In this document: positions 11,126-33,808 of the stretch, piece by piece
Position numbering within the stretch: position 1 is the first letter of the stretch
How the letters are laid out: every line of letters starts with the position of its first letter
Assembly: GCF_000427965.1 (NCBI RefSeq)
Contig: NZ_ATZA01000012.1
Coordinates: 1 to 64,000 of the forward strand
DNA from: Olivibacter sitiensis DSM 17696
Lineage (GTDB): Bacteria > Bacteroidota > Bacteroidia > Sphingobacteriales > Sphingobacteriaceae
DNA length: 64,000 nucleotides
Direction of reading: 5' to 3'
Program-made: the position numbers and the translations under genes
The notes under the pieces: model-generated
The model's input: the letters and a program-made list of their open reading frames with translations, nothing else
The model's database searches: none
Told to the model about the DNA's origin: nothing

Positions 11126-11241
11126 TATGCTGCCTTTTTTGTTGTGATGAACAAATTTAAGCATTATAATGTTTATGCCCTTCAAACATCTTTAATAATT
11201 TCGATAGAAGGGCTTCATTAAAAAAAGAGAAGAAAATTCAG

Positions 11242-11763
11242 ATGAAGGTTTTAAAATTACGCACGTTATTAGTTCTATTGGCCCTGGTTACCTGTGCATG
11301 GGCTGGATGCAAGACAAGCCAGCAAGGGCAGTCCGATTCGCCTTCGGCGCGACAATGGCGCAATGCCGTGAAAGGCCAATGGGTATTGGATGAGGTTGGC
11401 CAACAGGCATTCCCCAAGGGGGCTTCAGTGAGCCGTATCTTTGACGAAGCTCCCATAGAATGTTTTATAGGCAGTACTTGGAATTTGATTTCTAATGGCC
11501 GCGGTGGAATTACCTTTACGGCAAATGGCGACGTTTGTGCCCCGGGGGCCACAAGGGATATCTTTTGGTCAGTATTCGATGGTGATGGGCAGGACGTGCA
11601 ATTTCAATTCAAGAAACTCTATCCTGGAGAGAAAGCTAGTCAGGTGAAGGAAGGCTATCGGCTTGTTTTGGATTATGCTGATGCACAAAGTCTTACAATG
11701 CTGATGCCTGTGAATATCGCTGGTGCAAAAGATGCATATCTTGTGTTCAAGTTTTCGCGCTAG
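11242..11763 (+). CDS. Lipoprotein, lipocalin-like fold possible
   Basis: 173 residues with a lipoprotein signal ending in WAGC (Cys at residue 22). The mature part starts with a GQWVLDEV segment and has alternating beta-type stretches and three more Cys, two of them at ECFIGSTW and NGDVCAPG. Small GxW-starting secreted domains of this kind in Bacteroidota are often lipocalin-like, but I cannot assign a ligand. It is monocistronic with its own terminator. Confidence 0.6.
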   Translation: MKVLKLRTLLVLLALVTCAWAGCKTSQQGQSDSPSARQWRNAVKGQWVLDEVGQQAFPKGASVSRIFDEAPIECFIGSTWNLISNGRGGITFTANGDVCAPGATRDIFWSVFDGDGQDVQFQFKKLYPGEKASQVKEGYRLVLDYADAQSLTMLMPVNIAGAKDAYLVFKFSR

Positions 11764-25846: not shown

Positions 25847-26881
25847 TCAGGAATTAAGTAAAATAATCGATAGCCAATTGTCATTTTGGGTCCCTTGGGA
25901 ATTTAAGAGGAGTAAGGAGCCGACAATGCCGTGAAGTATACTGCCAAGATGTGAAAGGGGTGTGTTTCTTTTGTACTTTAATACTTCCTTAGTCTTGATC
26001 TCTGTTTGGCCTAGCCAAAACTTATAGGCAGTTATATAGGTGAATTCCCCAGTGAGTTTATACAAGGCTTTGTAAAGGCAGGCTATCCCCGATGTTCCAT
26101 TGTAGAGGTAGGGATTGTCTATGCCGCGTGCTTGGCTGCTGAGGTTGCAAAAAGATTGAATCCCCAGTGCTTTCGCCTCTTGGACATAATTGGCATTGAC
26201 AAAATTGAAATGTACCCTGTACAGAAAAAGTGACGATATGAGCTGTTGTTGGCAAGAACAGATGTTCTTCGAATCCGACAGGATCGATTCGGCTATGGCC
26301 AATATTTCTTGCTTTAGCCACTTAAATTGGAAATGCTTTTCATAGAGGTTCAGCAATAGCAAACCAAGCAAGACCTTGTCATTTTCTAACCAGGTATCAT
26401 TCTTCTCTTTGGTGGTAGATGTACTGTATGTCTCAATGGAATGCATCAATACCGAAGCGTTCTGTTCGATTATTTCGGACGAGAAATCCCTAAAAGAAAG
26501 GTAGTGTAGATAACCCAAGGCCCCATCTAAAAAGCTATTTTCGCATGCGCTATTATTTCTGGCATATTGCAGGCATAATTGTAAATCCAATTCAGACAAT
26601 TCTTTCTCCAGGTCGAGCTGAATATGACCATTCTTTTTCAGAAATGTGAGGAGCATGGCAAATCCAGTCATTCCCGATCTAAGGGAACAGTCTTCCAACA
26701 AGTCGTTTGGATGATGGGAGAGGAACCTTTCGAAGAAGTGCTGATTGCGATTATAATAAGTATTATAGCCATATCGGCCGCTTTCATACAAATAGAGCAC
26801 GATACTTAAATAGTCATTCACGAGCAAGTCGTCGCTATCCACGGCAGTTGTTTCAATAAAATCCTCTATGAGAGATTCCAA
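25847..26881 (-). CDS. LanC-like protein without zinc ligands (second copy)
   Basis: 344 residues. The alpha/alpha-barrel LanC pattern is visible as spaced GxxG motifs: LRSGMTGFAMLL (about 67-78), FLDGALGYLHYL (about 116-127), YLYNGTSGIACLYKALYKLTGE (about 257-278) and ILHGIVGSLLLL (about 318-329). In lanthionine cyclases the third block reads CHG and an earlier one WCYG. Here the third is LYNG and the earlier one WLEN, so the Cys, Cys and His zinc ligands are all absent. Catalysis of thioether formation is therefore unlikely. It is the last gene of the precursor operon, 40 bases after the first LanC-like gene. Confidence 0.7.
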   Translation of the reverse strand: MESLIEDFIETTAVDSDDLLVNDYLSIVLYLYESGRYGYNTYYNRNQHFFERFLSHHPNDLLEDCSLRSGMTGFAMLLTFLKKNGHIQLDLEKELSELDLQLCLQYARNNSACENSFLDGALGYLHYLSFRDFSSEIIEQNASVLMHSIETYSTSTTKEKNDTWLENDKVLLGLLLLNLYEKHFQFKWLKQEILAIAESILSDSKNICSCQQQLISSLFLYRVHFNFVNANYVQEAKALGIQSFCNLSSQARGIDNPYLYNGTSGIACLYKALYKLTGEFTYITAYKFWLGQTEIKTKEVLKYKRNTPLSHLGSILHGIVGSLLLLNSQGTQNDNWLSIILLNS

Positions 26882-26921
26882 CCCATTTTTGAGTTTTCAG
26901 GCGTTTAGGCTTCTTCCCATG

Positions 26922-27926
26922 TTAATCAATGACGGCTTTTTCGATAAATGTTCTGGTAACCAGGTGATCTATGTTCGTCCTGATAGGCATGGCACAAAGT
27001 GGGGGTTGGAACGAGTTTTCCTTTGTAATTTTCAACCAATCCTCAAATGCGCTATGGAACCTACAATCCCCTGTCATCCTGAAGAATTCCGAATACAAGT
27101 ACGCTATGCCAAGCGAACCTTCGTAAAAAGAAGTGTTGCTCACATCATTTTCCAATAAAACTGGACACAGCAAGGTGTTGAGTGCGATGGCGTGCCCGCT
27201 CCGGAAGAAAGAAGCTTTGCCTGTGAAGGTGGCGTAGTCCATCAGCGCTTTTGCGGGCAAGAGGTCTCCGTGCAACAGCGGGAGTATTTTCCTCATGGAG
27301 GATTCGGGAGTTGGACCGAAAAAAGTAAACCTTTGGTCTTCTAGGCTTACTTCCTGCCAGTAGTCAAGAAGTGCCTCCATACACTTTTCCAACAAAGACC
27401 TACGATAGATATAGAATTCAATATCCGGCTTAGGCAGGTACAGGAGAATATCAATAAGGTTTGCCAACTCGAAAGTGGGCGAATCAAGCGTTTTATAAAC
27501 CTTTTCATCTATAAAAATTTCCAAACCCCTCATGAACTCTTCCATCAGCTCTCCAAGTTCGTCCGATAATCTACTGTTTCGGAGGAATAGCATATATGCG
27601 CCGGCGCCTTCCAAAAAACTATAATTGTTACTGTGTATATGTGTTAGACAGGCGTCCGCCGCTAGATTATATATGTATCTAGGAACCGACAATTGAAGTT
27701 CAGAATCGGAACTATTGAAACGTGACAATATATTGGCCGTATAGACCAGATCCTTTACTAAATCTTTCTGGCCTATTTCTATTGAAAGCAATAGCTTGTC
27801 CAGCAAGCCGTTGACAGGTTTAGGGGGGGACGAAGTGAGATGACTTATTGTTGTAAACAAAGTCGCTTCTGTTTCGTTCCTCCCGAATAAAATTGGATTA
27901 CGAGATGAAAATGCGAGCCTATCCAT
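26922..27926 (-). CDS. LanC-like protein without zinc ligands (first copy)
   Basis: 334 residues. GxxG-type blocks: FLEGAGAYMLFL (about 100-111), LLHGDLLPAKALMDYA (about 215-230, in place of WCYGDLG) and FYEGSLGIAYLYSEFFRMTGD (about 270-290, in place of CHGTAG). The zinc-binding Cys and the Cys-His pair are replaced by Leu and by Tyr-Glu. The TGD..F..A...WL text after the last block is as in Bacteroidota LanC proteins, so the family is supported even though the active site is lost. The start is 25 bases after the stop of the precursor gene. Confidence 0.7.
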   Translation of the reverse strand: MDRLAFSSRNPILFGRNETEATLFTTISHLTSSPPKPVNGLLDKLLLSIEIGQKDLVKDLVYTANILSRFNSSDSELQLSVPRYIYNLAADACLTHIHSNNYSFLEGAGAYMLFLRNSRLSDELGELMEEFMRGLEIFIDEKVYKTLDSPTFELANLIDILLYLPKPDIEFYIYRRSLLEKCMEALLDYWQEVSLEDQRFTFFGPTPESSMRKILPLLHGDLLPAKALMDYATFTGKASFFRSGHAIALNTLLCPVLLENDVSNTSFYEGSLGIAYLYSEFFRMTGDCRFHSAFEDWLKITKENSFQPPLCAMPIRTNIDHLVTRTFIEKAVID

Positions 27927-27951
27927 TGGGCTAAAATCATTGTGCCAATAC

Positions 27952-28113
27952 TTAGACAGCCAAAAAGTCTGCAGTGACAGACGTAAGTGTAGGATAGGTT
28001 TCCACCCCCTTCGAAAATATCTTGCCTTTTGCGTTTTGTGTCACTCCTTGGTTGAGTTTTGCAATAGTTCTTTTGTTAAAACCCTTTTGCCTTTGTTTTG
28101 CTAATGTTTCCAT
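27952..28113 (-). CDS. RiPP precursor peptide, class I lanthipeptide-like, cysteine-free
   Basis: A 53-codon gene read from the intergenic DNA: ATG at 28113, stop TAA at 27954-27952. The leader holds FNKRTIAKLNQ (residues 12-22), close to the LNKKTIAxL leader of Bacteroidota class I lanthipeptide precursors. The C-terminal 18 residues GVETYPTLTSVTADFLAV are rich in Thr/Ser (five) and have no Cys. There is no GG cleavage motif. It is the first gene of an operon with two LanC-like genes and lies near a LanB, which supports it. The leader/core boundary is unknown. Confidence 0.72.
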   Translation of the reverse strand: METLAKQRQKGFNKRTIAKLNQGVTQNAKGKIFSKGVETYPTLTSVTADFLAV

Positions 28114-28364
28114 GATGTATATCTTATTTGTTTGATCAAATATTGTTTTAATCCTTTTTTTAGTTAAACTTATTACACCAACACGGTTAAAATAAGTTCA
28201 AACCGAGTGATTCCGAGTACGAAATTTATATAGGAAAGTTCTTTTCGGTGGGTCTGTCCTTTTGGGGGGCTTTTGACGTATGCGTCTTATACATTTGTTT
28301 ATTTTAATTTGACAAAAAAGTTAAATTGGCAGCATGGTTCGACAAATAAAAATAATGGCTGCAC
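28114..28364. promoter_or_regulatory. Divergent control region of the RiPP locus
   Basis: This region separates the precursor operon (minus) from the kinase/regulator pair (plus). It contains direct repeats CCGAGT at 28203-28208 and 28213-28218, ten bases apart, and TACATTTG at 28290-28297, a -7-like element for the plus direction about 68 bases before the kinase ATG. No clear promoter is seen for the precursor. LytTR proteins bind pairs of direct repeats, so the CCGAGT pair is a candidate site. Confidence 0.35.
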
Positions 28365-29477
28365 ATGGATTCGGGTAAGTTACGTGGTAACGTATCGATG
28401 GGGAAATCGAAAAATATATCGACCAACATAATGATCCATGTTGTATTATGGCTGTTTTATTGGCTGTATGAGCTGGCTCATGCCTTTGTACTTGTCCCAG
28501 AAACGATATACTGGACAGAGACCATTCTGATGATATCCCTCAATATCGTCCAGTTTTACATTGTAAAGAACTGGGCACTTCCCGAATGGGGCAAAGCATT
28601 GAATGCATGGCGTATTGGGTTTAGGTTGGCCTTGATTACTGGCGCTTACGCAGGCATTAAATTTATTTTATACAAGCAGTTGCAGCACTTGGATTTGTTA
28701 GATGACAGGCTTGGGAATATGCCGTCTTTCTTATTGAGCACAATCCACCGCTCCCTTTATTTCTCCTTGTTGGCAGCCGCCTTTTGGTTCTATGGCGTAT
28801 CTATGCGTTCGGCAGATGCCGTTAGGAAAAAGGAGCTGGAGAAGGAAAAGCTAAAGGGAGACCTGACGGCCATGAGACTTGCTGTTCTAAGGGCGCAAAT
28901 CAATCCCCATTTCCTTTTTAATACGTTGAGTTTTATCTACTCCAAGGCATTTGTCCTGTCGGAACAGTTGGCCAAGGGAATACTTACCCTTTCGGAGATT
29001 ATGCGCTACTCCATTCAAGAATCCGACCTCAGTAGCTCGGCAAAGTTGATGAATGAGGTGAGGCATATAGAGAATCTCATTCTGCTAAATAGGTATCGGT
29101 TCAACGACAATTATCATATCTCTTTTAAGTATGTCGGCGTTAAAGCCACACATCGAATTGTGCCTTTCATTTTGATAACGATGGTGGAAAATGCCATGAA
29201 ATATGGCGATGGAAAGGATGCCGACTTCCCCATTACCATTTGGCTATCTGTAGAAAAGGGGAATAACTTGCGTTTCTGTGTTAAGAACAGGAAGTTGAAG
29301 AGGGAAAAGCTGGACGAAAAGGATGGGATAGGGATGCGGTTTGTCAAGTCCAGACTTAAGGAATTTTACGAACATTTTCATCATATCCAAATCCATGATT
29401 CGGAGGATTTCTACGAACTGCAACTGGATATGGAATTAATCGAGGTGGCAGATTTGAAAAAATTGAACAACAACTGA
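28365..29477 (+). CDS. LytS-type sensor histidine kinase of the RiPP locus
   Basis: 370 residues. About four TM helices occupy residues 24-150, followed by a short coiled coil (VRKKELEKEKLKGDLTAMRLAVLRAQ). The His_kinase block RAQINPHFLFNTLSFIY carries the phospho-accepting His near residue 182, and the ATPase part has TMVENAMKYG near 271-280 and KDGIGMRFVKSRL near 320-332. Several Bacteroidota RiPP clusters carry such a pair. ATG 28398 is an alternative start. It is followed 22 bases later by its regulator. Confidence 0.85.
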   Translation: MDSGKLRGNVSMGKSKNISTNIMIHVVLWLFYWLYELAHAFVLVPETIYWTETILMISLNIVQFYIVKNWALPEWGKALNAWRIGFRLALITGAYAGIKFILYKQLQHLDLLDDRLGNMPSFLLSTIHRSLYFSLLAAAFWFYGVSMRSADAVRKKELEKEKLKGDLTAMRLAVLRAQINPHFLFNTLSFIYSKAFVLSEQLAKGILTLSEIMRYSIQESDLSSSAKLMNEVRHIENLILLNRYRFNDNYHISFKYVGVKATHRIVPFILITMVENAMKYGDGKDADFPITIWLSVEKGNNLRFCVKNRKLKREKLDEKDGIGMRFVKSRLKEFYEHFHHIQIHDSEDFYELQLDMELIEVADLKKLNNN

Positions 29478-29499
29478 TTTTTTTCGTAAATTTATCCCA

Positions 29500-30243
29500 A
29501 TGATAAAGTGTATAATCATAGACGACGAGCAGCATGCCATCGATATTTTGGAGGTCTATTGCCGGAAGACGCCCTATCTCGAATTGGTGGGCTCGTTTAC
29601 GGATTCCCGCGAGGCATTCAATGTGATTATGGATAGGTATGTAGAGCTTGTATTTCTCGATATCAACATGCCGGGCATGACGGGATTGGAGTTCGTCAAG
29701 ATGTTGAAAAATCCTATATCAGTTGTCTTTACCACGGCCTATCCCGAATATGCCGTTAGTGCTTTCGATAACGATGCCACGGACTATCTGTTGAAGCCCT
29801 TTTCTTTCGAACGCTTTATCGTTGCTACTCAAAAGGTCCTGAATAGATTTGCTAAACCCAGGCCGTTCAAGGAAAACGCTTACGATTGGGGGCATTTCTT
29901 CGTCAAGACAGACCTTGGGAAATTGACCAAGATTGCCTTTAAGGAAATACTCTATGTAGAAGGGTTGAAGAACTACGTCGTTTTCCAGCTTATAGGAGGC
30001 CGTAAATTGGTCACATTGCTCAATATGAAGGATGTGGAGGAGGAGCTTGAGGAGTTTTCTTTTTTCAGGATACACAAATCCTATATTGTTTCCATTGACA
30101 AGATCGCATCGGTAGATGGGAACAGGGTTTCCCTAACGGAAGGCGAACATGAACTGCCCATCGGCAGCACCTATAAGGATGCTTTTCTACACGGTATCAA
30201 TCTGAAACTGAGAGGCGGTGCTAGTCAATATGCTCCCAGATAG
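29500..30243 (+). CDS. LytTR-family response regulator
   Basis: 247 residues. The receiver domain has IIDDEQHAID at 5-14, the phospho-acceptor Asp in LVFLDINMPGMTGLEF near 51-66, TTAYPEYAVSAF near 80-91 and the Lys in YLLKPFSFERF near 97-107. The LytTR DNA-binding domain starts at about 130 (FVKTDLGKLTKIAFKEILYVEGLKNYV) and ends with FFRIHKSYIVSIDKI and the GSTYKDAF block. It likely controls the precursor operon in answer to the adjacent kinase. It is convergent with lanB, with 11 bases between the stops. Confidence 0.9.
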   Translation: MIKCIIIDDEQHAIDILEVYCRKTPYLELVGSFTDSREAFNVIMDRYVELVFLDINMPGMTGLEFVKMLKNPISVVFTTAYPEYAVSAFDNDATDYLLKPFSFERFIVATQKVLNRFAKPRPFKENAYDWGHFFVKTDLGKLTKIAFKEILYVEGLKNYVVFQLIGGRKLVTLLNMKDVEEELEEFSFFRIHKSYIVSIDKIASVDGNRVSLTEGEHELPIGSTYKDAFLHGINLKLRGGASQYAPR

Positions 30244-30254
30244 CATCGAATGCG

Positions 30255-33200
30255 CTATATGTCCCTGTCCAATCTCGACTTTTTCGACTTATAATAAATA
30301 TGTAGAAGTTCATATATGACCATTTCGTGTGCACGTTGATCAAAGGGAAACACCCGGTTCAGGTGCATATGGATGATGCTGGATATAAATCCATATCGAG
30401 AGGTGCCGGGTTCCTCGCTTTGGATTAAATGCTCGAAGTCTAGCGCTAAGTTGGATGATGTGGATATACTTCGCTGTTTCAATAACCTGGACAATGGCAT
30501 GTAGTCCTTATCTTCAAATCCGTCATCTTCCATGTACTTGTCAATCTGTATTCTATACTTTCGGTATTTGCCGTTTATGTGGGTATAGGTCTCGCGATCT
30601 GCCTGAAACTCTGCTGCAAAAGCACGATTGAGCTGTGCTAGCATATGGAGCTTATCTTCCAGCGTAAAATGGAAATCGGTCAGTATGTCATCGGTCGACC
30701 TCATGGCCAGGAGCCATCGCGTTTCTTCTGGAAGAGTACCTTCATTGATCAACTTAAGGGCTTTTACCGTAAAATCGCTGTCGAGCATAAAGAACTTTTC
30801 CGCTAGGAAAATGCCCTTACTCCCGTACCTTTCCAATTCTCTTTCGTAAGTATCCAAGCATACTTTCCAAATAAGGCCTTCTTCCAGGTGTGTTTTAAAA
30901 TAATTGTTAAAACGATCTACGAGCTCCTGAAACTCGTTTCTCTGGGAAAGTCTAAAACGTAAGCGGAGATGGTGCCCCGTGTCTATAAACCTTATAAAGA
31001 ACCACCCATCTATAAGTCCATCACTTTTTAATTCTTCTGCCAATTGGTAAATCTCTTCGGTTAGTAGGCGCTCCATGACTTGCGTGCCGGCATAAATTTT
31101 GAAATAAAGCCATTCAGATCCCATCAGGAAGTGTCTTTGGACCGCATGGGGAGATGCGGAGGCTTTTTGAAGCATATCGTTTTTTTCTTTCTTTCGTTTG
31201 ACAAGCGGTAGGATGAGCTGGTTGATATACGGATTTCCGTGTTCGTCGGCAATGGGGTAATTACGGCCAAGATCAAAAGGGAATTCCTTCAGGACTATAC
31301 GGTTCCTGCCTTTGACCGTTTGGCAAAATGTTGCAAGAGATGAAGTGCTTTCTAGATCTATGAGTAGCGTGTTGTCTCCTTCTACCAATGAAATCAGTCG
31401 TGGCAGCCTCCATTTTTCGGAAAAATCTTTCAGACTGCCGGTGGAGGTATATTCATTTATCGCAAATTGGATGTCTCTTAGGCCAAAATTCCATGTGGCG
31501 AGTGAAACCAATACCTTGCCTACCGATACACGCGGAAAATAGGAGAGATGTCTTAAAGCTTGCGGCCACCTGAATGCCAATCCTTGCTCCAGTCCCTGAT
31601 TTTGCATGTCGCAAAGGAATTGGTAGACGGGCAGGGCATTATTGCCATAATTATGTGCATTGCTGAGTCGAGGTATGACTTGTTTTTGTTTCCTTTCGGA
31701 CCATAGGACAATTCTTGCATTTTCTATGGATATGGATAGGTCGTCGAGGGGAATTACCTTGTCATCCGCCAATGAAGGCCTTGCCAGGTAAGGGATCTCA
31801 TAATCGAGGTAGGCTGGATGCTGCAGGATGTTTCCCACCCTACTCTCAGGTAGATGGACGATTTCCGCCAATAGATGAGCCCTGTTCAGTTCCTTTTCTT
31901 TTCTTACAATTTCATCTATCAACGACCTGATATTCTCATCCGCATATCCGAATCTTCCCATCAGGTTTATCGCGCTACTTCCGCTGGCGGATTCTAGGAA
32001 AAATTGCTCTTCATTGAGCAAATAAGCTATGCAAGACATGGAGTCCGGTAAGTCGTGTTCATCTGGCTGCCCAAATTCGGATACTAGCTCATCTAAGTCG
32101 AGTTGGATATTTTTCGTGCCTTCTCCTAGTGAGTTATATAAAAGCGATGTAAGAAATTCATCCATGCTGTCGTGTTCCACCGTTTTCGGTTTCTGTCTTT
32201 GTCCTCCCATGGGGATGCCAATCAACAGGGGTGATTCCGGATTGGTGGCGACCTCCAAATAACCCAATCCTGTTTCGGTATCTAATACTTCCAATAAGGG
32301 CATCTTTCTGTCGCCATATCTTTCTATGAAACGCTTTTTAAATGCTTCCAATCTTTCATTACTTCTTCGGGGTATGAGTATGTTGAGCGCAGATAAGGCT
32401 TGTTGGAGTGCAAGGGTATGAGCCTTATTTAGAGAAAACCCTTTATTATTTTTCCGAAAGGCATCAACTTGAAAGAATGTCTTCTCTTCAATGAAAGTTC
32501 CTAGGTTTTCTGCCAATGCGATGATTTCCCGATAGGCGCTTATGGCGTTTGGCTGTTTTTGATCAAGTTCCTGTAGCTTTTCTTGTATAGCTTGCAAATA
32601 GTTTACTTCGTGCTGCACATCGGCACCTTCGTCCATTATTTTCGACAGTGTTTTCAACAGCTGCTGCAGCATGTCTCCGCCAGTTATCTGTGGTTCAAGT
32701 TCACTGTAAAGAAGTCTCGATTCTATACAGTTTTCTACAAAGTCTGCTGCCTCGGCCTCGGTATAATCGAATTCCATCATTGTTTTTACCATTTCCTGGT
32801 AGCGAATGCCTTGTTGGGCATTTTCCAATAACTTGGCTAGTTCCTCGGAATGGTAAATAGCGCTAATGGTATGAAACCGCTTGCTTGCGATTTGTTTGTA
32901 TTCGACAAAGCGAAGTTCATCGGCCAGATGGTACATGGACGTATTTGGATAAAATCGGATACTTTCCCTAATACTTTTCTTTTTGTTTAAATTATCTGCC
33001 AATTCGCAGAGGTATAACATATCCAGGCGTGTAACCCTTTTTATAATGGAGGCGATAGTGGGGTTTGTATGGTCCGACCATTTTCCGGTAGAGCAAGTAG
33101 CGAAAAGCCCAAAAGGGGTACACCTACTACTCATTCTAAGCGCGTATTTTCTCAAAGAGATCAAAAGCCGATCAGATACTGGCCCATTTAAGGTCTTTTC

Positions 33201-33401
33201 CGCTGATTTAGCTAACTGGTCATATAAGCCTGTAGATGCTAGATAAACGGCTTCCTTAAGTAGCGGGTTGTGCAGGAAATAGCCGTAAGTCTCATCATCC
33301 TCATAATGTGGCTTAAATGGCAGGGTAGGAGTTCTTACAATAAAAGCGGTGCTAAAATCGAATTCGCTGCTGTGTTTTTTTAAGGGCTCCTTATATGACA
33401 T
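30255..33401 (-). CDS. Full-length lantibiotic dehydratase (LanB)
   Basis: 1048 residues that combine both LanB domains. The glutamylation domain (Lant_dehydr_N) spans about 10-720: FIVRTPTLPF at 20-30, RMSSRCTPFGLFATCSTG near 90-107, ERYGDRKMPLLEVLDTETGLGY near 353-374. The elimination domain (SpaB_C type) spans about 755-1040: GSEWLYFKIYAGTQVMERLL, WFFIRFIDTGHHLRLRFRL and the YERELERYGS segment. It should glutamylate and then dehydrate Ser/Thr of the precursor with Glu-tRNA. It is encoded apart from the precursor operon. Confidence 0.9.
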   Translation of the reverse strand: MSYKEPLKKHSSEFDFSTAFIVRTPTLPFKPHYEDDETYGYFLHNPLLKEAVYLASTGLYDQLAKSAEKTLNGPVSDRLLISLRKYALRMSSRCTPFGLFATCSTGKWSDHTNPTIASIIKRVTRLDMLYLCELADNLNKKKSIRESIRFYPNTSMYHLADELRFVEYKQIASKRFHTISAIYHSEELAKLLENAQQGIRYQEMVKTMMEFDYTEAEAADFVENCIESRLLYSELEPQITGGDMLQQLLKTLSKIMDEGADVQHEVNYLQAIQEKLQELDQKQPNAISAYREIIALAENLGTFIEEKTFFQVDAFRKNNKGFSLNKAHTLALQQALSALNILIPRRSNERLEAFKKRFIERYGDRKMPLLEVLDTETGLGYLEVATNPESPLLIGIPMGGQRQKPKTVEHDSMDEFLTSLLYNSLGEGTKNIQLDLDELVSEFGQPDEHDLPDSMSCIAYLLNEEQFFLESASGSSAINLMGRFGYADENIRSLIDEIVRKEKELNRAHLLAEIVHLPESRVGNILQHPAYLDYEIPYLARPSLADDKVIPLDDLSISIENARIVLWSERKQKQVIPRLSNAHNYGNNALPVYQFLCDMQNQGLEQGLAFRWPQALRHLSYFPRVSVGKVLVSLATWNFGLRDIQFAINEYTSTGSLKDFSEKWRLPRLISLVEGDNTLLIDLESTSSLATFCQTVKGRNRIVLKEFPFDLGRNYPIADEHGNPYINQLILPLVKRKKEKNDMLQKASASPHAVQRHFLMGSEWLYFKIYAGTQVMERLLTEEIYQLAEELKSDGLIDGWFFIRFIDTGHHLRLRFRLSQRNEFQELVDRFNNYFKTHLEEGLIWKVCLDTYERELERYGSKGIFLAEKFFMLDSDFTVKALKLINEGTLPEETRWLLAMRSTDDILTDFHFTLEDKLHMLAQLNRAFAAEFQADRETYTHINGKYRKYRIQIDKYMEDDGFEDKDYMPLSRLLKQRSISTSSNLALDFEHLIQSEEPGTSRYGFISSIIHMHLNRVFPFDQRAHEMVIYELLHIYYKSKKSRLDRDI

Positions 33402-33527: not shown

Positions 33528-33627
33528 GTCATCGCGAGGAGCGAAGTGACGTGGCAATCTACGTTTTTTGTTTGTCAGATTGCCACGTCGTGCCTCCTCG
33601 CCTGCCTACCGCAGGCAGGCAATGACG
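33528..33627. repeat. Long imperfect palindrome with nested hairpin
   Basis: The left arm GTCATCGCGAGGAGCGAAGT... GACGTGGCAATCT (33528-33560) pairs with AGATTGCCACGTCGTGCC TCCTCGC...CAATGACG (33577-33627). The right arm is interrupted by a small perfect hairpin CCTGCCT/AGGCAGG (33601-33619). The rest of 33402-33735 holds no gene I can support. Sequences with the same GTCATTGCGAGGAGC...GCAATCT text recur between genes in many bacterial genomes. Confidence 0.7.
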
Positions 33628-33735: not shown

Positions 33736-33777
33736 AAAAAGTAAGGGCGTCCAAAAGATATTTTTTTGGACGCCCTT
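33736..33777 (-). terminator. Intrinsic terminator after the DUF5856 gene
   Basis: Perfect 14-bp arms AAGGGCGTCCAAAA (33743-33756) and TTTTGGACGCCCTT (33764-33777), followed on the minus strand by ACTTTTTC. Confidence 0.85.
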
Positions 33778-33808
33778 ATCGCTAAATCTCTGTGCAATAA
33801 TCTCTGTA

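Follow-up and report, generated by a model that had tools for sequence, protein, structure and literature searches.

A LanB locus of Olivibacter sitiensis with a cysteine-free precursor and site-less LanC-like proteins: a candidate source of a linear dehydrated peptide

Introduction

What does a LanB dehydratase locus make when its precursor peptide has no cysteine and its LanC-like proteins have no cyclase site? LanB enzymes are best known for lanthionine chemistry, and the question is raised by a locus of Olivibacter sitiensis DSM 17696 at positions 25847-33401 of a 64,000-nucleotide stretch of contig NZ_ATZA01000012.1 (hereafter the window). Here, a LanB gene is found together with a 53-residue Cys-free precursor, two LanC-like proteins that we call P1 and P2, and a LytS/LytTR regulatory pair. 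All of these parts, reported in a first-pass annotation, were confirmed at their positions, and the domains of LanB score over cut-off. The annotation had proposed dehydration without thioether rings. Judging from sequence comparison, we consider it somewhat probable that the locus makes a linear, dehydrated ribosomally synthesised and post-translationally modified peptide (RiPP) without thioether rings.

The dehydratase and its precursor

The LanB is the sole PF04738 match in the whole 5.05-Mb genome, and both of its domains lie above cut-off (PF04738, 458.8 bits; PF14028, 212.4 bits). It keeps the residues that align with NisB Tyr80, Arg83, Arg87, Thr89 and Asp121, and its conserved C-terminal His, which aligns with a His of MadB, is one that we take, by its motif, to be the counterpart of NisB His961. 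The relevant section of PMC4341554 gives zero dehydration for NisB mutants at Tyr80 and His961 and reduced dehydration for those at Arg83 and Arg87. In an alignment of the 77 LanBs surveyed below, the catalytic positions are conserved about equally in Cys-free and Cys-containing loci, with Asp121 found at 19 of the 23 Cys-free loci and the C-terminal His at 22, the last showing a gap. By these residues the window LanB looks competent.

The precursor contains no Cys, as first annotated, and its C-terminal core contains Thr and Ser, with six Ser/Thr among the last 23 residues. Its leader is matched by a leader hidden Markov model built in this analysis (E 0.0039), and against the L1a leader model NF038153 it scores 14.2 bits, under the cut-off of 22; the Pedobacter relatives at L067 and L068 score 22.3 and 15.2. 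Eight of ten Cys-free precursors that were scanned gave no match to any NCBIfam precursor model.

An ordinary lanthipeptide could be produced if a Cys-containing precursor or an active LanC were located outside the locus. The window genome is in 110 contigs, and parts of such systems can be scattered, as in P. jeongneungensis, where the LanB lies ~50 kb from the Cys-free operon. We regard this as very improbable, given that the listed completeness of the genome is 99.99% and that searches of the genome found no other LanB, no LanC beyond P1 and P2 (PF05147, E up to 1), and no further L1a leader (E up to 10), the sole match being the precursor itself at a score below cut-off. The second, Cys-containing precursor that the first-pass annotation had named as one point against its own proposal was not encountered in the genome-wide L1a search.

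The LanC-like proteins lack the cyclase site

P1 belongs to the LanC family by its PF05147 score, which is above the curated cut-off of 23.2 bits, and P2 scores under that cut-off (Table 1) and is matched by a LanC profile built in this analysis (E ~1e-53). The WCYG and CHG blocks are missing from both proteins, and the residues aligned with the canonical zinc triad, C/C/H in canonical relatives, are C/Y/N in P1 and L/Y/E in P2. The annotated lack of zinc ligands needs one qualification, in that a P1 Cys aligns with the first ligand, albeit within a rewritten block. Changes extend to the positions of NisC Asp141 and His212, which we take to be catalytic-site residues: in our alignments the Asp141 position is changed in both proteins, and the His212 position is Asn in one alignment and a gap in another for P1, and Phe in one and Asn in another, never His, for P2. 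A catalytic role for NisC His212 is also given in the pertinent passages of PMC9993889 and PMC9934072. With these changes, P1 and P2 should not function as LanC cyclases.

Structure prediction, with canonical LanCs included in the input alignment, gave a LanC toroid for P1 (predicted local distance difference test, pLDDT, 80.2; predicted template modelling score 0.84), the best PDB matches of which are MadC (E 6e-4), LanCL2, GCR2 and NisC, with E <0.001 for MadC only. The P2 model is weak (pLDDT 66.5), and a fold search with it gave weak matches. The toroid that P1 is predicted to retain would suit an alternative in which P1 or P2, as a cyclase with a LanC fold and no metal, links a Lys, Tyr, Asp or Glu side chain to dehydrobutyrine (Dhb) or dehydroalanine (Dha). 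Metal-free LanC domains do exist, as in ThurKC, which acts on Cys substrates (PMC10604976, in the part consulted), and NorKC is reported in an excerpt of PMC10880069 to join His to Dhb. However, the catalytic His and Asp positions are also lost in P1 and P2, LanC is missing altogether from related loci, and inspection by eye revealed no nucleophile common to the Cys-free cores, a Lys in L087 being Arg in L094. A cross-linked product is accordingly improbable to our minds, and joining by other chemistry, which the annotation had offered as an option, found no positive support. We favour a linear product, with scaffold, leader-binding or LanB-binding functions possible for P1 and P2.

Cys-free cores and the loss of LanC coincide across Bacteroidota

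Of 396 genomes sampled from the class, 55 had a PF04738 match, and this search together with earlier ones provided 91 regions for examination and 77 loci with an assignable precursor. Small open reading frames (ORFs) were grouped by all-against-all comparison that was blind to Cys. Thirteen of the 91 regions were dropped (without a clear precursor, with ambiguous or mixed ones, or a repeat), namely L035, L036, L041, L043, L111, L117, L124, L129, L134, L139, L144, L146 and L149, and rows for genomes G442 and G203 were substituted for L067, L068 and L085. The precursors of L107, L112 and L118 were hand-picked, leader scores were weak for those of L106 and L104, L114 was assigned as Cys-containing by eye, and G203 was scored as having a zinc LanC although that gene is ~50 kb from its LanB. 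In this survey, Cys-free refers to the core (six of the 23 Cys-free loci, L044, L048, L052, L053, L054 and L106, have Cys in the leader half), and absence of LanC means absence within the fetched region, mostly 8-9 kb per side and in some cases cut by contig ends. An L1a precursor family accounted for 98 ORFs at 58 loci; other families had ends like SSMTFTTSNFI (7 loci), DPTTxTxTxS (6 loci) or TSSSSKVSNII (3 ORFs at 2 loci).

At 23 loci the only precursors found have Cys-free cores. Eighteen of these are without LanC in the region, and the remaining five (the window, L087, L094, L104 and L118) have only LanC-like proteins that are missing both the triad and the catalytic His. Among the 54 Cys-containing loci, 45 have a C/C/H LanC, four have a LanC whose triad is altered but whose His remains, and five are without LanC, such that the catalytic His is kept in the LanC of 49 of the 54. 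The association of a Cys-free core with an absent or dead LanC gives a Fisher p of 4e-15 over the 77 loci, ignoring kinship, and in a strict subset that leaves out L107, L112, L118, L106 and L104 it is seen at 18/18 Cys-free loci (Fisher 8e-13). Among 15 genomes whose LanB locus is without LanC, 11 have no PF05147 gene, and LanC-less loci therefore seem to persist without a cyclase.

Zinc loss alone was considered as a marker of Cys-free systems and rejected, since altered triads accompany Cys precursors at L039, L110, L142 and L145 and in the third Pedobacter LanC described below. All of these altered-triad LanCs keep the catalytic His, and it is therefore His loss on top of zinc loss that separates the two sets. 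The first-pass suggestion that Cys-free precursors go with zinc-less LanC homologues is borne out to the extent that LanC is absent or dead at 23/23 loci, and fails for zinc loss by itself. The comparison as a whole (LanB residues, no Cys, dead LanC-like proteins, no second L1a precursor found, 23/23 loci) gives good support to dehydration without thioether rings, and the overall interpretation was upheld in part, with three corrections.

A second sample yielded 32 loci, three of which are Pedobacter loci already seen. LanC occurs with Cys precursors at 19 loci, and L186 has a LanC but no precursor was found there. The LanC-less loci comprise four with Cys-free precursors only, three mixed, three with Cys and two without a precursor; four LanC-less contigs are <10 kb. 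The direction is the same as in the first sample, with purely Cys-free loci lacking LanC in 4/4 cases (Fisher 0.009), and mixed loci are added. Separately, we observed that in LanC-less Flavobacterium loci with a split LanB (L183, L191, L192, L198, L202, L203 and L206) a precursor has Gly-Gly and a short core without Cys, ITPPTNSGQ being one example, and that some of these loci also have weakly scored Cys-containing candidates. At L096 and L098, which have a C/C/H LanC, a Cys-free Thr-rich precursor lies next to Cys-containing ones.

Regulators and transporters set the Cys-free loci apart

Regulators and C39 domains were counted at the 23 Cys-free loci and at 52 Cys-containing loci (G442 and G203 left out), ignoring kinship. 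LytTR is found within 3 kb of LanB at 21/23 Cys-free versus 5/52 Cys-containing loci, LytS at 20/23 versus 6/52, and a C39 domain in 3/23 versus 30/52 regions. This distribution favours the view that the Cys-free loci are a distinct group, and the window locus has its features: LanB, a Cys-free core, a site-less LanC and LytS/LytTR near LanB. Loci without the pair are L125, L126 and, in the second sample, the Cys-free loci with a split LanB. A further observation is that several Cys-free loci have a single-domain receiver gene between precursor and LanB; in L048 it is at 11167-11556, minus strand (PF00072, 31.6 bits), and similar short receiver-like ORFs were judged by eye to be present in L046, L054 and L039.

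Pedobacter relatives and the possibility of decay

A search with P2 of 399 genomes of the family gave a match in 11, including the window genome, and a P1-P2 pair in two, G442 (Pedobacter sp. KBW06) and G203 (P. jeongneungensis). A genus-level search of 145 genomes added G496 (P. steynii), and a further contig scan with P2 gave no match. In these nearest relatives the operon order is precursor, LuxR-type regulator, pseudo-LanC, LanC1, outer-membrane protein, luciferase-like oxidoreductase, C39-ABC and HlyD. The pseudo-LanC is the orthologue of P2, and its His position is alignment-dependent (not His in one, His in another). LanC1 is the orthologue of P1 and retains WCYG and CHG; we also observed that the zinc LanC1 of L067 (8082-9269, minus strand) and L068 (8395-9609, minus strand) has Pro where canonical LanCs have Arg before WCYG. 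The precursor of the operon is likewise Cys-free, with the C-terminal end DTTNTLTITYTISVPKP or DTTLTITLTNMPPMNK.

The three Pedobacter LanBs are 42-43% identical to the window LanB, which has the G442 and G203 proteins as sisters in the LanB tree. Each of the three adjoins 3-4 Cys-containing precursors and a third LanC with triad S/R/H, a module that in G203 is ~50 kb from the Cys-free operon, and one LanB may serve both Cys-free and Cys-containing precursors in these relatives. The precursors beside the S/R/H LanC are 3-4 near-identical peptides of the form TFTCCT...HYSC at L086 (905-1775, minus strand), L177 (8136-8772, plus strand) and L178 (6393-7260, plus strand). Given that a zinc LanC is kept in Pedobacter and that no Cys precursor was found in the window genome, we read the zinc loss in P1 as secondary, and the comparison suggests that it occurred in a lineage without Cys-containing precursors. 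Joint loss in the window lineage is the simplest reading, its direction being one that we infer.

The same comparison raises the alternative that the locus is a decaying remnant, a Pedobacter-like two-module cluster from which Cys precursors, transporter and zinc LanC have gone and which makes no product now. An ATG in the P1 frame at 26918-26920, one base past the P2 stop, meets a TGA at codon 8 (26897-26899), meaning that P1 starts at a downstream TTG or is broken, and P1 has in-frame deletions that count against a live copy; it may be decaying. The leader is without the Gly-Gly that the Pedobacter relatives carry, and a search of the window genome for a C39 peptidase gave no match (E up to 0.1), leaving export and leader removal unexplained. 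Moreover, no transporter gene was seen in the locus, nor any of the LuxR, outer-membrane, luciferase-like, C39-ABC and HlyD genes that the Pedobacter operon carries. On the other hand, the LanB frame is open over 1048 codons with its catalytic residues present, and in-frame codon scores are alike (P1 0.146, P2 0.111, LanB 0.147). Percent identities of window proteins to the two Pedobacter orthologues, as against those between the two, are 42.8/42.4 versus 61.3 for LanB, 31.4/34.1 versus 51.8 for P1, 25.8/24.5 versus 44.5 for P2, 40.2/38.7 versus 53.8 for LytS and 51.5/51.0 versus 67.2 for LytTR; P1 and P2 fall in proportion to LanB, indicating no speed-up beyond it. In addition, Cys-free loci of other genera keep the core of LanB, precursor and LytS/LytTR and mostly have no nearby C39 transporter (20/23), which makes a missing transporter weaker as a sign of decay. 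On this evidence we think decay unlikely, while granting it real weight.

The interrupted P1 frame, the missing Gly-Gly and the unexplained export also count against a linear product, and three results of the survey do so too. Firstly, seven Cys-containing loci are without LanC if L111 and L117 are included, 49/56 then having one (Fisher 4e-14). Secondly, the first-pass view that the matched loss makes chance less likely holds for the coupling over 77 loci but is tempered by kinship: the LanB tree, for which FastTree warns of long branches, has 9 changes of the Cys-free state, and its independent pairs, in most cases 4-5 concordant with 0 discordant, give a median p of 0.125 that is not significant. 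Finally, precursors with and without Cys occur together at L096, at L098 and in the Pedobacter loci.

A proposed route to a linear product

The sequences themselves show the gene content, the lost sites, the co-distribution and the kinship with the Pedobacter loci; dehydration, the lack of rings, the sequence of losses, the part played by P1 and P2 and the regulation are proposals built on these. If the locus does make a linear dehydrated peptide, LanB would bind the leader and glutamylate core Ser/Thr with Glu-tRNA, and would then eliminate glutamate to leave up to six Dhb/Dha. With no Cys in the core and no cyclase site in P1 or P2, no thioether ring would form. P2 would derive from a pseudo-LanC and P1 from a zinc LanC, a pair that Pedobacter still has, and P1 would have lost its zinc site too in a lineage without Cys-containing precursors. 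Any role left to the two proteins would be a non-catalytic one, as partners that bind the leader or LanB. The LytS/LytTR pair would control the locus, and one might guess from this link that the product is a signal sensed by LytS.

We hold with belief and doubt in equal measure that Bacteroidota have an unrecognised LanB-dependent RiPP group with Cys-free Thr-rich cores, a dedicated LytS/LytTR pair and no cyclase, LanC being mostly gone and dead in a few cases including the window, whose linear Dhb-rich products are perhaps signals sensed by LytS. If true, such a recurrent group would yield linear dehydropeptides that are passed over when mining is guided by Cys; two mining studies, in the sections consulted, selected for Cys (PMC7268733, PMC11251773). 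Furthermore, the series from zinc LanC to dead LanC to no LanC would offer natural cases in which to look for roles of LanC besides cyclisation.

Organization of the locus and its flanks

The minus strand carries lanB, the precursor, P2 and P1, in that order; between the first two lie lytS and lytTR, encoded on the plus strand (Table 1). On one side the locus borders a DUF2400 gene, and its neighbours on the opposite side are a small DUF5856 gene and an arginyl-tRNA synthetase gene. Two inverted copies of an element, GACGTGGCAATCT, perhaps a palindromic intergenic repeat, lie at 33545-33592, in the gap that separates LanB from the next gene upstream, and a perfect 15-bp stem with a T-rich tail 3' of the DUF5856 gene (33742-33778, minus strand) is likely a terminator. 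A promoter scan gave fewer sites than in shuffled sequences, and a plasmid search gave no match.

Table 1. Coordinates of the genes of the locus in the window
Feature	Position	Strand	Evidence
LanB-type dehydratase, 1048 amino acids, glutamylation and elimination domains	30255-33401	-	PF04738, PF14028
LytTR response regulator	29500-30243	+	PF00072 68.6 bits, PF04397 64.1 bits
LytS-type histidine kinase (His_kinase family)	28365-29477	+	PF06580 64.4 bits
Cys-free precursor, 53 amino acids, L1a-like leader without Gly-Gly	27952-28113	-	Sequence, leader models
P2, LanC-like, triad L/Y/E; orthologue of Pedobacter pseudo-LanC	26922-27926	-	PF05147 16.2 bits, alignments
P1, LanC-like, triad C/Y/N, TTG start; orthologue of Pedobacter zinc LanC1	25847-26881	-	PF05147 35.1 bits, alignments

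Comparison with known systems

In the literature searched, from which most subscription journals fall outside coverage, no report was found of Cys-free LanB precursors or of LanB with LytTR. An earlier count of LanB with triad-less cyclases gave 14 predicted peptides and required at least one precursor Cys (PMC11251773, as excerpted), and triad-less LanC without LanB is reported in Bacteroidales in the available portion of PMC10352776.

Class I lanthipeptide loci of Bacteroidota share with the window a two-domain LanB, an L1a-like leader, LanC-fold proteins and a RiPP architecture, and the sister LanBs in Pedobacter adjoin Cys-containing precursors. Such loci are described in the accessible text of PMC7268733 as having LxLxKx5L leaders, Gly-Gly and a C39 transporter, and class I products are known from Chryseobacterium and Runella (PMC9993889, in part). 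Unlike these, the window locus has no core Cys, no C/C/H zinc LanC and no Gly-Gly, its genome gave no C39 peptidase match, and a LytS/LytTR pair is present instead.

The second module of the Pedobacter clusters (KBW06 L179/L067, P. steynii L180/L085 and P. jeongneungensis L068), module B, is similar to the window in its orthologous LanB, P1 and P2 and its Cys-free Thr-rich precursor. It differs in that its LanC1 keeps the zinc triad, Cys-containing precursors adjoin its LanB, and its operon encodes a C39-ABC transporter, HlyD, an outer-membrane protein and a luciferase-like protein. Among Sphingobacteriaceae, the LanB loci without LanC (L044, L046-L048, L051-L054, L133, L147 and L151-L153) likewise have a LanB and a Cys-free Thr-rich core, in most cases with LytS/LytTR and mostly without a C39 transporter, but their regions contain no LanC-like gene, their leaders belong to other families, and several have a single-domain receiver gene.

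Linaridins such as cypemycin are linear, Dhb-rich peptides and serve here as a working analogy only. They have no LanB, and their dehydration is by kinases and lyases (PMC10880069, in the passages available). The class III LanKC enzyme ThurKC also has a LanC fold without zinc ligands (PMC10604976, likewise in part). Its substrates contain Cys, and its cyclase lies inside a kinase-lyase-cyclase protein. Cyanotins and prochlorosins have an active cyclase and mixed substrate sets. Some of their precursors are Cys-free, as in the window, according to the relevant part of PMC7268733, but the enzyme that modifies them, LanM, is of class II.

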